Shown piece after piece: positions 32,966 through 39,407 of a stretch of 43,257 nucleotides of DNA (its first letter is position 1; each line of letters opens with the position of its first letter). The notes under the pieces were generated by a model. It saw nothing but the letters and a program-made list of their open reading frames with translations. It searched no databases and had not been told where the DNA came from. The position numbers and the translations under genes are program-made. Source of the stretch: Bacteroidales bacterium (GTDB taxonomy: Bacteria; Bacteroidota; Bacteroidia; Bacteroidales; F082); contig JAEETH010000024.1 in the NCBI GenBank assembly GCA_016290215.1, forward strand, positions 1-43,257. The letters run 5' to 3'.

Positions 32966-33175
32966 TTGTTAGATTTCAAGATTCAAAGATTTAAAATTCA
33001 AAGATTTAAAAATTCCGCATTCCTCATTCATCGTTCCTCATTCCGCATTTCGCATTCAGCATTCCTCATTCCGCATTCCACATTCCTCATTCCGCATTCC
33101 ACATTCCGCATTCATCATTCCGCATTCCTCATTCATCAAACCTCACACCTCATACCTCCAAACTCCTAACTGAAC
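32966..33175. repeat. Short tandem repeats, CATTCCGCATTCCTCATTCC family
   Basis: GATTCAAAGATTTAAAATTC words (32975-33012) lead into about 12 CATTCC-NCATTCC words of 10-11 bases (33010-33140), then CTCATACCTCCAAACTCC and CTAACTGAACAACTC words. It fills the 257-base gap between the DUF3078 and TonB_C genes. The same family, more regular, is at 34951-35094. Confidence 0.85.
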
Positions 33176-34950: not shown

Positions 34951-35094
34951 TGAATTAAGAATGCGGAATGAACCTACCGTAGGCAGTCATTCCGCATTCC
35001 TAATTCCGCATTCCTAATTCCACATTCCTAATTCCACATTCCTAATTCCACATTCCTAATTCCGCATTCCTAATTCTGCATTCCTAATTCCGCA
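34951..35094. repeat. Exact 14-nt tandem repeat between convergent rlmB and S9 peptidase genes
   Basis: ATTCCRCATTCCTA occurs seven times back to back from 34989 to 35086 (one copy has CTG in place of CCR), with an eighth partial copy. An inverted copy (AATTAAGAATGCGGAATG) lies at 34954-34971, so the ends can pair. It reaches the stop codons of both flanking genes. Confidence 0.9.
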
Positions 35095-37194
35095 TTATTT
35101 CAGGTATTTATCCAACCAATTGTAGAATCTGCGTTGCCAAAGCACGCCGTTCTGCGGTTTCAGCACCCAGTGGTTCTCGTCGGGGAAATAGAGGAACTCG
35201 GCAGGGATGCCGCGTAGGATGGCGGCGTTGTAGGCCTGCATGCCCTGCGTGAAGCAGATGCGGTAGTCCAAGCCGCCGTGGATGACGAGGATGGGCGCGG
35301 TCCACTTGTCGACGAAAAGGTGAGGTGAGTTGGCGTAGGTCTTGCGCACGGTGGCGTCGTTCCATTGCCAGTAAGGGCCGCCGAGGTCCCAGTTGACGAA
35401 CCACATCTCCTCGGTCTCAAGATATTGCGCCTCTAAGTTAAACATGCCGTCGTGGGCGATGAGTGCCTTGAAGCGGTCTTCGTGGTGACCAGCCAGCCAG
35501 TACACGCTGAAGCCGCCGAAGCTGGCACCCACGGCACCAAGGCGATTCTCGTCGATGTAAGGCTCTTTCTTTAGTTCGTCGATGGCGCTGAGGTAGTCTT
35601 TCATGCACTGCCCGCCATAGTCGCCGCTGATTTCCTCAAGCCATTCCTGACCGAAACCGGGCAAGCCGCGACGGTTGGGGGCGACGACGATGTAGTCGTT
35701 AGCAGCCATCATCTGGAAGTTCCAGCGGTAGCTCCAGAACTGGCTCACCGTGCTCTGCGGTCCGCCTTCGCAGTAGAGCAGGGCAGGGTATTGCTTGTTG
35801 GCATCGAAGTGAGGCGGGTAGATGACCCAAACGAGCATGTCTTTTCCGTCGGTGGTCTTCACCCAGCGCTCCTTGACCTCACCCATGGTGAGTTGGGCGA
35901 AGATGTTGTCGTTGATATGCGTGATCTGTTCGGCTTCTCCTGTGGTGGGGCTGACGGCGAACAGCTCCGTCGGGTGGCTCATCGACTGGCGACCGGCAAT
36001 TAGTTTTTCGCCGTTGTAATGCACGGAGATGTAGTTGTGCTTGCCCGTGGTCAGCTTCTTGATTTCGCCGTTCTCGAGGTTGAGGGCGTAAATCTGGTCG
36101 GTGGCGTAAGCATCGCTGATGAAATAGAGCATTTTGCTGTCGTCGGCCCAGCTGAAACCTGTGCAGCATTGGTCGAACTTAGCCGAGTAGTCGGTCTTCT
36201 CGCCGAGAAGGAGGTCCATCACGAAGAGGCGTTGCTTGTCGCTCTCATAGCCGTCGCGTTCCATGCTCTCCCAAGCCATGTAGCGGCCGTCGGGCGAGAT
36301 GACGGGGTTGAGGTCGTAGCCCATCATGCCTTCGGTGAGGTTCTTGCACTCGCCGCTTTGGATGATGTACTGGTAGATGTCGGTGTTAGTGGAGAGGGCG
36401 TAGTCCTTGCCGACCTTCTTGCGGCAGCAGTAGACGAAGCTCTGTCCGTCGGGCAGCCACTGCACCTGCTCCATGCCGCCGAAGGGGCGCACGGGGGCTT
36501 CCCATTGCTCGCCCTTCATGGCGTCGAAGGCGTTTTCGATCTTGCCGTTGCTGAAGTTACCCACGAAGATATGGCCATAGGTGTCGACCCATTGGTCCCA
36601 GTGACGGTACATCAGGTCGTTGTTGATGCGGCCCGACGATTTGTCGAGGTCGGGATAGATGTCGGCCACGGTCTCTTTCAGCTTCACTTCCTTAGTGAAC
36701 AGCACTTGAGCGCAGTCGGGCGAATAGAGGAAGCCGTTGATGTCGTCGGCCTCGTTGGAGACGCATTGGCGTCCCGTGCCGTCGGGGTTGATTTCCCAAA
36801 GTTGCATCACGCCGTCGTCGTTAGGGGCGAGGAAGCCGATTTTCTTGCCGTCGGGGCGCCATTGCGGGCTGTATTCGCTCACGTTGGAATCCGACAGCAC
36901 GTGGTTGTTCGAGCCGTCGGCGTTCATAATATACAAGGTGGAGCCGCTGCGGTTTTCGGGCACGCTGTAGTAGGTCACGTTGTAGACGATTTGCGAGTGG
37001 TCGGGCGAGAGACTGTACTCCCCGATGCGGCCCATGGCCCATAGCACTTCGGGCGTCATGATGTCCGAAGTCAGGGTGAGTTCTTGCGGCCCGATTTTGT
37101 CTTTGCCTTTGGGCTCTGTCTCAGGCTTTTGTGTGTTGCACGATACGATTGAACAGGTAATCATGGCTAACAGGAAAAGTTTGGTTTTTCTCAT
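35095..37194 (-). CDS. Prolyl-oligopeptidase (S9) family lipoprotein, DPP5-like
   Basis: The 699-residue serine peptidase has a lipoprotein signal (MRKTKLFLLAMITCSIVSC, Cys19), an N-terminal beta-propeller (for example SLSPDHSQIVYNVTYY, SPQWRPDGKKIGFLAPN, NPVISPDGRYMAWES) and a C-terminal alpha/beta-hydrolase. The triad is Ser558 in GASFGG, Asp643 in GGLDYRI and His675 in DENHWVL. S9 enzymes of this layout, such as Porphyromonas DPP5, release dipeptides from peptides in the periplasm. Exact specificity is not readable. It should complement the DPP III lipoprotein and PepD in the window. Confidence 0.9.
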   Translation of the reverse strand: MRKTKLFLLAMITCSIVSCNTQKPETEPKGKDKIGPQELTLTSDIMTPEVLWAMGRIGEYSLSPDHSQIVYNVTYYSVPENRSGSTLYIMNADGSNNHVLSDSNVSEYSPQWRPDGKKIGFLAPNDDGVMQLWEINPDGTGRQCVSNEADDINGFLYSPDCAQVLFTKEVKLKETVADIYPDLDKSSGRINNDLMYRHWDQWVDTYGHIFVGNFSNGKIENAFDAMKGEQWEAPVRPFGGMEQVQWLPDGQSFVYCCRKKVGKDYALSTNTDIYQYIIQSGECKNLTEGMMGYDLNPVISPDGRYMAWESMERDGYESDKQRLFVMDLLLGEKTDYSAKFDQCCTGFSWADDSKMLYFISDAYATDQIYALNLENGEIKKLTTGKHNYISVHYNGEKLIAGRQSMSHPTELFAVSPTTGEAEQITHINDNIFAQLTMGEVKERWVKTTDGKDMLVWVIYPPHFDANKQYPALLYCEGGPQSTVSQFWSYRWNFQMMAANDYIVVAPNRRGLPGFGQEWLEEISGDYGGQCMKDYLSAIDELKKEPYIDENRLGAVGASFGGFSVYWLAGHHEDRFKALIAHDGMFNLEAQYLETEEMWFVNWDLGGPYWQWNDATVRKTYANSPHLFVDKWTAPILVIHGGLDYRICFTQGMQAYNAAILRGIPAEFLYFPDENHWVLKPQNGVLWQRRFYNWLDKYLK

Positions 37195-37267: not shown

Positions 37268-38533
37268 TTATGGTATCAACCAATTGGCTGCCGAAACGAT
37301 ACGGATGGTGAAACCATCTTGTTCCACCTCCTCTTGGTTGTCAAGGGTGACAAGAGTCAGGTTGTTGCAATGCAGTTTGTTGGCGGCTTTTAGCAATCCA
37401 TTCAATTCGCGTCGGCGGGTCTTAGGGCTGCTGATGTCGTATGAGACTTGAACCAACTCGATGACTCTGCCTGCTTGGGCAACAACGAAGTCACATTCAT
37501 AGTCTTTCTCCCTGAAGTAGAACACATCAGCGTAATTGGGTCGGTGGCGGCGAAGCAACTCGATATAGACGATGTTCTCTAACCGCCAACCGAGGTTTTC
37601 GGTCTGAAAGGTGTCGTTTCGTTCCGAAATGAAAGCAGGATCAACGACATACACTTTTTCGTTTCGGATGCGACTTTTGCTTTTGAAGGAAAACTTGCGT
37701 ACACTGAAAAGAAGAAAAGCCTCTTGCAGGTAGTGAAAATAGTTCTCTGCCGTGTGGTCGGTGATGCCAAATAGTTTGCCAATCTCATCGGCCTTAAACT
37801 CTTGACAAAAATTGTCCATCAGGTAGGCCGCCATGCGATATAGCACGTCAACATGGCGTAGCTTGAAACGCTTTGCGATGTCGTTGCGGATGATATTGTC
37901 CAACAGTGCCATGATATAGCTTCGTCGGTTTTTCTCGTTCAGCAATTCAGGAAATCCCCCTTGGGTTAGGTAATCCGTCAAAGCAGCTTTTCGCAAGGCT
38001 TGCCCTTTTACCGAGAGAGAGGTCGTGTCCACATTGCGGAAGGCGCAATATTCTGAAAATGAGAAGGGATACAACTCCACTTTATTGTGACGACCCGTAA
38101 GATGCGTTGCCAATTCCCCACTCAACAGTTTGCTGTTGCTGCCCGTAAGGAAAATGTGGATTTCTTGCCTGAGCAGGCGGTTGACAAATAAGTGCCATTG
38201 CTTCACGTTTTGGATTTCGTCCATGAAAAGATAGTGGAAATCTCCGTAAAGCCTGTAAAGTGCTTCAAGTAGGGTGTCAAGGTCTGCAGTTTTGAATGAG
38301 GCCAATCGGTCGTCGTCAAAGTTGACGTATGCTGGAGCGATTTTTCGGCCGGCGAAGTATTTGAGGCATAGGGTCGACTTGCCACTTCTTCGTACACCAA
38401 TGACCACTTGAGCTAATCTGCTATCCAATGAGAGCTGGGATTCTTCCATGCGAGTGCATAGATTCCTCTTGCTAAAACGCTGAAATTCTTCCTTTTGATC
38501 TGATAAAACTTTTACTAAGTCTTGTATATTCAT
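37268..38533 (-). CDS. AAA_14/DUF4143 ATPase, intact
   Basis: The 421-residue protein has Walker A GVRRSGKST (46-54), Walker B LFMDEIQN (Asp105, Glu106), a sensor at IFLTGSNSKLL, a helical or winged-helix stretch (FKADEIGKLFGITDHTAENYFHYLQEAFLLF) and a C-terminal DUF4143 domain of restriction-endonuclease-like fold (ENIVYIELLRRH ... YECDFVVAQAGRVIELVQVSYD). In the nuclease-like part the usual Glu-x-Lys is Glu-Leu-Val-Gln, so catalysis is doubtful. This family is often present in many copies per genome; its function is unknown. The gene is preceded by the five-unit 32-nt repeat array that straddles its promoter, and the winged helix makes self-binding plausible. A truncated relative is at 21446. 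Confidence 0.9.
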   Translation of the reverse strand: MNIQDLVKVLSDQKEEFQRFSKRNLCTRMEESQLSLDSRLAQVVIGVRRSGKSTLCLKYFAGRKIAPAYVNFDDDRLASFKTADLDTLLEALYRLYGDFHYLFMDEIQNVKQWHLFVNRLLRQEIHIFLTGSNSKLLSGELATHLTGRHNKVELYPFSFSEYCAFRNVDTTSLSVKGQALRKAALTDYLTQGGFPELLNEKNRRSYIMALLDNIIRNDIAKRFKLRHVDVLYRMAAYLMDNFCQEFKADEIGKLFGITDHTAENYFHYLQEAFLLFSVRKFSFKSKSRIRNEKVYVVDPAFISERNDTFQTENLGWRLENIVYIELLRRHRPNYADVFYFREKDYECDFVVAQAGRVIELVQVSYDISSPKTRRRELNGLLKAANKLHCNNLTLVTLDNQEEVEQDGFTIRIVSAANWLIP

Positions 38534-38554
38534 ATCCGATTATCCTATTTAAAC

Positions 38555-38695
38555 TACGATAAATAAAGATTTTTACGCTACAAAAGTACGATAAAATCCG
38601 AAAATATCAATAATAAAGTACGATAAAATCCAATTTTTTATATCGTAAACTACGATAAAATCCAAAATTTCACTCTGAAAACTACGATAAAATCC
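38555..38695 (-). repeat. Five phased 32-nt direct repeats straddling the AAA_14 promoter
   Basis: On the plus strand TACGATAAAATCC starts at 38587, 38619, 38651 and 38683, all exact, and the related TACGATAAATAAA at 38555. The period is exactly 32 nt throughout, close to three helical turns. Linkers are A/T-rich and not conserved. The -33 TTG lies between units 2 and 3 (38608-38610), the -7 TACTTTTG lies at 38581-38588, and unit 2 fills the 19-nt spacer. Unit 1 would be just after the transcription start. Confidence 0.9.
38581..38610 (-). promoter_or_regulatory. Promoter of the AAA_14 gene
   Basis: -33 TTG (38608-38610), 19-nt spacer, -7 TACTTTTG (38581-38588) on the minus strand. It sits within the repeat array. 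Confidence 0.75.
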
Positions 38696-38734
38696 AAATT
38701 TAGCTAAGACAATAACACTTTTTTTCATAAATCC

Positions 38735-38843: not shown

Positions 38844-39407
38844 ATGTTAAGTCAAGATGTAAAGATTGGAAGTGCCGTCCGTTTGGATGGAAAGATTTAT
38901 TTCTGCATTGACTTCCAACATGTTAAGCCTGGCAAGGGCAACACTATCATGCGTATCAAACTGAAGGATGTGATGAGCGGCAACGTTCTTGAAAAGCGCT
39001 TCGACATTGGCGTGAAGCTGGAGGATGTCCGTGTGGAACACCGTCCCTATCAGTACCTCTACAAGGAAGGTGAAGACTACATCTTCATGCACACCGAGAC
39101 CTACGAACAAATCCCGATCGCTGGCGACAACATCACGGGCGTGAAGTTCATGAAGGAAAACGATGTGGTTGATGTCATCGTCGATGCCAGCACCGAGACC
39201 ATCCTCTTCGCCGAAATGCCGGTGAAGACCGTGCTGCAAGTGACCTACACCGAGCCTGGTGAGAAGGGCAACACCGCCACCAACGCTCTGAAGGAAGCCA
39301 CCGTCGAGACCGGTGCCATGGTCCGCGTGCCGTTGTTCATCAACACCGACGACATGATCCGCGTCGACACCCGCACGGGCGAATATTGCGAACGCGTGAA
39401 GGCTTAA
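38844..39407 (+). CDS. efp: Elongation factor P
   Basis: EF-P binds the ribosome between the P and E sites and helps it through polyproline stretches. The 187-residue product has the three beta domains, with the N-terminal loop FQHVKPGKGNTIMRIKL. Its tip residue Lys31 is the site modified in other bacteria. The C-terminal domain ends GAMVRVPLFINTDDMIRVDTRTGEYCERVKA, the canonical end of the family. It has its own strong promoter and is followed by hairpins; the LpxD-type gene lies downstream. Confidence 0.97.
   Translation: MLSQDVKIGSAVRLDGKIYFCIDFQHVKPGKGNTIMRIKLKDVMSGNVLEKRFDIGVKLEDVRVEHRPYQYLYKEGEDYIFMHTETYEQIPIAGDNITGVKFMKENDVVDVIVDASTETILFAEMPVKTVLQVTYTEPGEKGNTATNALKEATVETGAMVRVPLFINTDDMIRVDTRTGEYCERVKA

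Follow-up and report, generated by a model that had tools for sequence, protein, structure and literature searches.

PDC-S01 candidate systems, in which an ATPase is fused to a domain of the PD-(D/E)-X-K superfamily, come fourth in abundance among the defences of prokaryotes (9,986 counted in archaea, 29,494 in bacteria), and validation is pending for most PDCs (available text of PMC12988326). They are ranked among the commonest candidate systems in both PMC12988326 and PMC13356809, and the available portions of these two papers make no mention of upstream arrays or of self-regulation of PDC-S01. A defence-linked regulator, RptR, has been described (accessible part of PMC12255303) to repress its native promoter via a set of direct repeats that includes two overlapping the -10 box, representing the nearest precedent for a regulated defence. 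Here, an AAA_14/DUF4143 ATPase gene and its upstream region were analysed within a 43,257 nt stretch of DNA (designated here as the window; positions 1 to 43,257 of the forward strand of contig JAEETH010000024.1, assembly GCA_016290215.1) from a Bacteroidales bacterium (F082).

Repeat array and ATPase at the window locus

The array upstream of the ATPase gene consists of four exact copies of TACGATAAAATCC (at 38587, 38619, 38651 and 38683, every step being 32 bp) and a partial copy, TACGATAAATAAA, at 38555, and is located between this gene and a divergently oriented neighbour (Table 1). The four exact units are 100 % identical, compared with an average identity of 48 % for the 19-bp linkers, and the array segment scored 24 against a maximum of 20 in shuffled sequence, with none of 1000 dinucleotide shuffles equalling it. 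Exact matching, linker identity and shuffling thus confirmed the earlier note, which had described four perfect units and one partial unit, 32 nt apart with unconserved linkers. Allowing up to two mismatches, TACGATAAAATCC had six matches in the window, four of which constitute the array, versus 0.5 expected by shuffling. Across the entire 3.8-Mb genome, exact matches were limited to the four copies of the array, and seven scattered one-mismatch sites were observed, compared with three for the reversed pattern. CRISPR repeats measure ~23-50 bp, and the 13-bp units of the window array fall below this range. Tandem repeats built from 7- or 14-bp units were also observed in the window, at 33012-33158 and 34989-35096 (21 copies of ATTCCTC and 7.7 copies of a 14-mer), and intergenic repeats of such short units, many of them 7 or 14 bp, are common in the source genome.

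Table 1. Features of the window locus (positions are those of the window; strand '.' denotes a feature without strand)
Feature	Position	Strand	Basis or detail
Phased direct-repeat array	38555..38695	.	5 units of 13 bp, period 32 bp
AAA_14/DUF4143 ATPase gene, 421 aa (P0001)	37268..38533	-	PADLOC PDC-S01
AAA_14 domain, residues 41-163	38045..38413	-	
DUF4143 match	37442..37885	-	Pfam
Winged-helix-like domain, about residues 228-280, suspected DNA reader	37694..37852	-	AF2 model; role putative
-7 box TACTTTTG of ATPase promoter, Bacteroidota type	38581..38588	-	motif match
-33 TTG of ATPase promoter, 19 nt from -7 box	38608..38610	-	motif match
Divergent neighbouring gene	38844..39407	+	own promoter motif TTG 38736 / TACCTTTG 38758, outside array
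Segment missing as one block in L217 (gene and array; 6 nt instead)	37268..38709	.	blastn

The ATPase promoter was called against a consensus which we take to be that of Bacteroidota. The unit at 38587-38599 spans the final 11 nt of the promoter spacer and runs into the beginning of the -7 box, and the claim of the earlier note that this unit exactly fills the spacer between the -33 and -7 boxes was therefore overstated. The partial unit is located past the expected start site of the ATPase gene.

The neighbouring gene, presumably encoding elongation factor P (EF-P), was found in 54 of 60 genomes of the genus, and its best 30 loci were compared by blastn. An array match was lacking at 27 of these 30 loci, while the remaining three represent the window copy and two relatives that retain traces of the ATPase gene. 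Most of the ATPase gene has been lost in L196 and L225, with the array kept in part (L196) or with all five units (L225), and in several relatives this site is occupied by different genes or arrays. In L217, the gap extends from the ATPase stop codon to just beyond the last unit. As the array is absent from most neighbour-gene loci and is missing together with the ATPase gene in L217, it was attributed to the ATPase gene rather than to its neighbour. A role in serving the neighbouring gene was rejected, since the promoter motif of that gene begins ~40 bp away and since 27 of the 30 neighbour-gene loci are without an array match.

Near the EF-P gene of L198, L205 and L219, arrays of another type (TCCCTTGAAAAAGTGT) were observed with no ATPase gene seen behind them, and in L198 and L219 the array promoter runs straight into the EF-P gene, as if an ATPase gene had been deleted. 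Inspection by eye of the region upstream of EF-P in L208 suggested that the end of another gene of the DUF4143 type lies there. The EF-P-adjacent spot may represent a turnover point for DUF4143-type genes.

The deduced protein, P0001, matched Pfam AAA_14 (116 bits, cut-off 27) followed by DUF4143 (71.3 bits, cut-off 28.1), and its best match among the PADLOC PDC-S01 models was PDLC04787 (E 1.7e-105). The C-terminal part (residues 288-421) exhibits a PD-(D/E)XK-like fold, consistent with the fold that defines PD-(D/E)XK nucleases. With columns assigned by alignment, the catalytic D...ExK of these nucleases was not found in P0001: all 26 sequences compared, those of P0001 and of 25 relatives, conserve D348, carry Q in place of E and have S, A, T or C in place of K. 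Among own-genome paralogues, 11 of 27 retain the catalytic K, as judged from columns likewise assigned by alignment. The AF2 model of P0001 resembles STAND- and ORC-type ATPases, and the STAND NTPase core (NTPase, helical and winged-helix domains) is present. In STAND NTPases, the C-terminal sensor is made of superstructure repeats and the winged helix is usually without DNA contact; such repeats were not observed in P0001, as the 421-aa protein ends with the PD-(D/E)XK-like domain. Foldseek comparison with viral models returned broad AAA+-type matches with TM-scores of at most 0.42.

Arrays in the source genome and across relatives

Arrays were scored as triplets of similar 12-mers with even spacing (18-72 bp) and compared with 100 dinucleotide shuffles. 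Each gene was assumed to begin at the first ATG in its frame or, for the second clade, where the match begins, so that some array-to-start distances may be inaccurate. Locus counts include near-identical copies unless collapsed.

The source genome encodes 28 DUF4143 matches, many of which have upstream regions with arrays, each spelled differently; 20 of the 28 beat all 100 shuffles and eight do not. Controls comprised first 103 and then 223 promoters from stretches of the same genome that exclude its 28 DUF4143 genes. Arrays with both spacings of 30-35 bp were observed upstream of 16 of the 28 DUF4143 genes versus two of the 223 controls (Fisher p 6e-16), and these two control matches represent the two sides of one intergenic region preceding an AAA_14 gene that is absent from the DUF4143 search list, indicating that a blind spacing scan re-finds such genes. 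The question raised in the earlier note, whether such repeats are equally common upstream of unrelated genes, was thus answered in the negative for the source genome by this single region among 223 promoters. At any period, 21 of the 223 controls beat all shuffles, 17 of these at 18-24 bp. The corresponding number for the first control set was 13 of 103, including a 30-31 bp region before an ATPase_2 gene that beat all shuffles for one of its two genes; with new shuffles, this region was not among the matches from the 223 promoters.

Units proved largely private to their gene, as 11 of 14 tested (from the 20 arrays) match no other array of the genome at one mismatch. Those that do comprise two short units of 10-11 bp and a core, TTTTGAGAATTTTG, common to the paralogues L017 and L023, in which it recurs at differing periods (22 and 33 bp, respectively). 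A regulon extending beyond the own gene was considered and rejected: 12 units of at least 13 bp were nowhere matched exactly across 400 kb of control DNA, and at one mismatch the same units yielded three matches, compared with three for reversed units.

In the sister family PF01637 (ATPase_2, 470-aa type) of the same genome, private repeats of alternating orientation seem, by eye, to precede the promoter (examples being L316, L318, L322 and L325, from the set L315-L333). In an inverted-repeat test of 19 loci, L316 and L315, the latter perhaps a terminator, exceeded all 60 shuffles, and for L318, L319 and L329 the score was reached by one shuffle.

Phased repeats upstream of orthologues, for which the earlier note had proposed a search, were indeed present. 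Among 28 close relatives (30 less L058 and L079, which are located at contig ends; the window gene is included as L057), 27 upstream regions beat all 100 shuffles, and all 28 were reached by at most one. The further relatives of P0001, which are mostly more distant (39 loci, L234 having been dropped from 40), included 14 loci that beat all shuffles and 25 that do not, with the ten nearest (46-50 % identical) all beating them. A second clade was obtained by a scan of a genome collection, of which the best 80 of 567 matches were considered and two of the 80 dropped (<170 bp upstream). Arrays at 65 of these 78 loci beat all shuffles, with a period of 32-34 bp in nearly all, and the loci were distributed over Bacteroidota, Bacillota, Spirochaetota and Fibrobacterota, as assigned from record titles; one counted array, that of L171, precedes a protein called at only 64 aa. 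When collapsed at 80 % identity, 15 of 16 clusters of close relatives, nine of 22 of further relatives and 44 of 49 of the second clade (best 80 of 567) beat all shuffles.

For the 380-aa DUF4143 type (29 order-level loci, four of which were dropped as no gene was called; the gene calls of L099 and L114 are doubtful), direct arrays beat all shuffles in three of 25 loci. Inverted repeats near the promoter beat all 60 shuffles in eight of these 25 loci (L088-L115), compared with four of 103 controls; an inverted repeat as an alternative operator of this type is suggestive only, because some of these repeats look like terminators. Nine plasmid copies were also analysed: those of Collinsella, Vibrio, Acinetobacter and Segatella beat all shuffles, that of Glaesserella was borderline (reached by one of 100 shuffles), and those of Fusobacterium, Bacteroides, Ruminococcus and Desulfosarcina do not beat all shuffles. 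With regard to a phage origin, 20 relatives were found among 2.9 million viral contigs (viral_contigs) and 19 phage records were obtained, and no paired exact units were found in viral contigs. The phased-array pattern, presented in the earlier note for a single locus, is real and more widespread, extending to much of the family but not to every member.

Among 125 arrays that beat all shuffles (best 80 of 567 for the second clade), 294 of 321 spacings were 32 or 33 bp. In three other clades of the genus, for each of which 18 loci were tested (six of 60 loci having been dropped as no gene was called), arrays beat all shuffles in 14, nine and seven of the 18 loci, and 24 of the 54 do not. Spacing was 22 bp in 13 of the 14 arrays (44 bp in the other), 22-23 bp in nine of nine and 51-52 bp in six of seven. 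Array spacing thus follows clade, at 22, 32-33 or 52 bp. Such spacings correspond to approximately two, three and five DNA turns, which points to contacts between neighbouring proteins bound on one face.

Unit and protein distances were correlated in two clades (rho 0.16, n=67, and 0.29, n=40), with none of 500 permutations reaching the observed values; the correlation is weak and indicates no single domain. A single domain of specificity was also sought with sliding windows of protein versus unit distance and rejected, as no clear peak was obtained and the window's clade was flat. The second-clade peak fell on residues 139-165 of L018, a segment that includes the stretch used to seed the genome scan.

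Promoter position and predicted self-repression

Promoter boxes were identified as motif matches; the Bacillota scan favours a -35 beginning with TTG, which is present in some units. In the Bacteroidales sets, TAnnTTTG was found within the last 95 bp before the start codon for 57 of 60 arrays, compared with 8.5 % in shuffles. Of these 57 promoters, 47 have a unit over the -33 region and 53 have no counted unit beyond the -7 box; the window array is not counted over -33, because its units sit in the spacer and over the -7 box. By a stricter measure, second-clade Bacteroidota (best 80 of 567) have a unit overlapping -33 in 11 of 38 loci, and units downstream of the -7 box in 14 of the 38 with such a box. 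In Bacillota, TTGAAA or a similar -35 occurs within many units, and among 18 loci with good promoters (best 80 of 567) a unit lies over the -35 in 15 and another just past the -10 in 13, positions that by analogy are those at which repressors bind. Repeats therefore lie over promoter boxes, a feature shared with self-repressing defence operators such as that of RptR.

Each AAA_14/DUF4143 ATPase is predicted, and we consider this probable, to repress its own gene through a private phased operator. Indirect support is provided by the arrays and their statistics, by spacing that follows clade, by the overlap with promoters, by the private spelling of units and by the absence of gene and array together in L217. 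Less favourable to self-repression are the own-genome DUF4143 genes, distant relatives, 380-aa genes and loci of the three other clades that do not beat all shuffles, the weak correlation of unit with protein distance, the position of the window units off -33, the scarcity of counted units beyond the -7 box in Bacteroidales, the usual lack of winged-helix contact with DNA in STAND proteins, and the array remnants in L196 and L225. Self-repression by a multimeric AAA/winged-helix protein had been suggested in the earlier note, and what holds of this suggestion is that the array belongs to the ATPase gene, overlaps the promoter and fits the model. We infer that the gene's own product binds the array and that this binding represses, as well as the existence of a trigger and of an effector action. 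ATPase subunits would bind their own repeat units via the winged-helix region, one per unit, and neighbouring subunits, approximately three helical turns apart on the same DNA face, would touch, allowing cooperative binding. The bound ATPase would cover the promoter, at -33/-35 for many of the family and at the spacer plus -7 box for the window gene, often together with the start site, and its own gene would be nearly silent until the ATPase is pulled away or switched. Because the paralogues read different units, some 20 circuits may operate per cell with little cross-talk. As a protein that solely represses itself would be pointless, the ATPase must have another job, which for PDC-S01 ATPases is presumed to be defence, and relief of repression would presumably serve it.

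The ATPase might instead bind its array and activate, with subunits upstream of -33 recruiting RNA polymerase in a positive-feedback switch, which we regard as fairly unlikely. The Bacteroidales arrays, most of which touch -33 without a counted unit beyond the -7 box, are consistent with activation, as are the resemblance of the fold to STAND and ORC ATPases and the archaeal AAA+/winged-helix regulator Orc1-2, which binds a motif on its own promoter (accessible text of PMC9738581); the Bacillota units over -35 and past -10, and the second-clade Bacteroidota units downstream of the -7 box, argue against it. Unlikely, too, is a reading in which silent STAND-like subunits are stored as a phased row on the private array until a trigger frees all of them together. 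If true, release would both derepress the gene and free a pre-formed set of subunits against an invader, and each genome would hold some 20 insulated alarm circuits, each a gene-plus-array cassette.

Binding of the units by another regulator, with the ATPase merely the regulated gene, would accord with the fact that no DNA-contacting region was pinned down in the ATPase, whose own binding is a prediction from sequence. This is improbable, however, as the private spelling of 11 of 14 units would require many separate private regulators, and as the array follows the ATPase gene (no blastn match at 27 of the best 30 neighbour-gene loci). It appears very improbable that the array chiefly serves for DNA docking or targeting, with at most a minor part in transcription, i.e. 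as a self mark, a PD-(D/E)XK recombination or cleavage site or a centromere-like site: the C-terminal PD-(D/E)XK-like fold and the joint absence of gene and array in L217 would fit such a site, but array position is tied to promoter boxes, and the window protein is, by alignment, without the usual active-site E and K. Functionless tandem-repeat slippage in AT-rich intergenic DNA is hardly credible, despite the short-unit intergenic repeats in which the genome is rich and the control promoters that beat all shuffles mostly at 18-24 bp, given that units are identical while linkers differ, that similar units recur across several phyla and that 30-35 bp arrays in the source genome are all but confined to AAA-type ATPase genes.

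Self-repression through a private operator, if correct, would provide a direct handle on PDC-S01 genes, which are among the commonest candidate defence genes: it predicts the DNA bound by a given protein and offers a reporter for the trigger. Private operators would also supply a natural set of distinct DNA-binding ATPases, and promoter arrays allow many AAA_14/DUF4143 genes to be recognised.

Comparison with described systems

No earlier description of phased arrays before such ATPases was found in the open-licence literature, among the matches listed. The archaeal ATPases SSO1545 (2FNA) and PABY2304 (2QEN) match P0001 in a manner that leaves out the PD-(D/E)XK-like part of the window protein; among the matches listed, no studies of their function were found in the open-licence literature. 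The likeness to PDC-S01 lies in the match of the window protein to the PADLOC models of this candidate defence. As far as the available descriptions go, RptR is a dedicated repressor of small size whose repeats measure 9 bp, whereas the window operator is that of a single-gene ATPase and differs between paralogues. The archaeal DNA-damage regulator Orc1-2, which combines AAA+ with a winged helix and binds a motif of its own promoter, sets a precedent for such a protein on its own promoter; in the accessible text, it reads one hexanucleotide common to several promoters, in contrast to the private phased array of each paralogue observed here.
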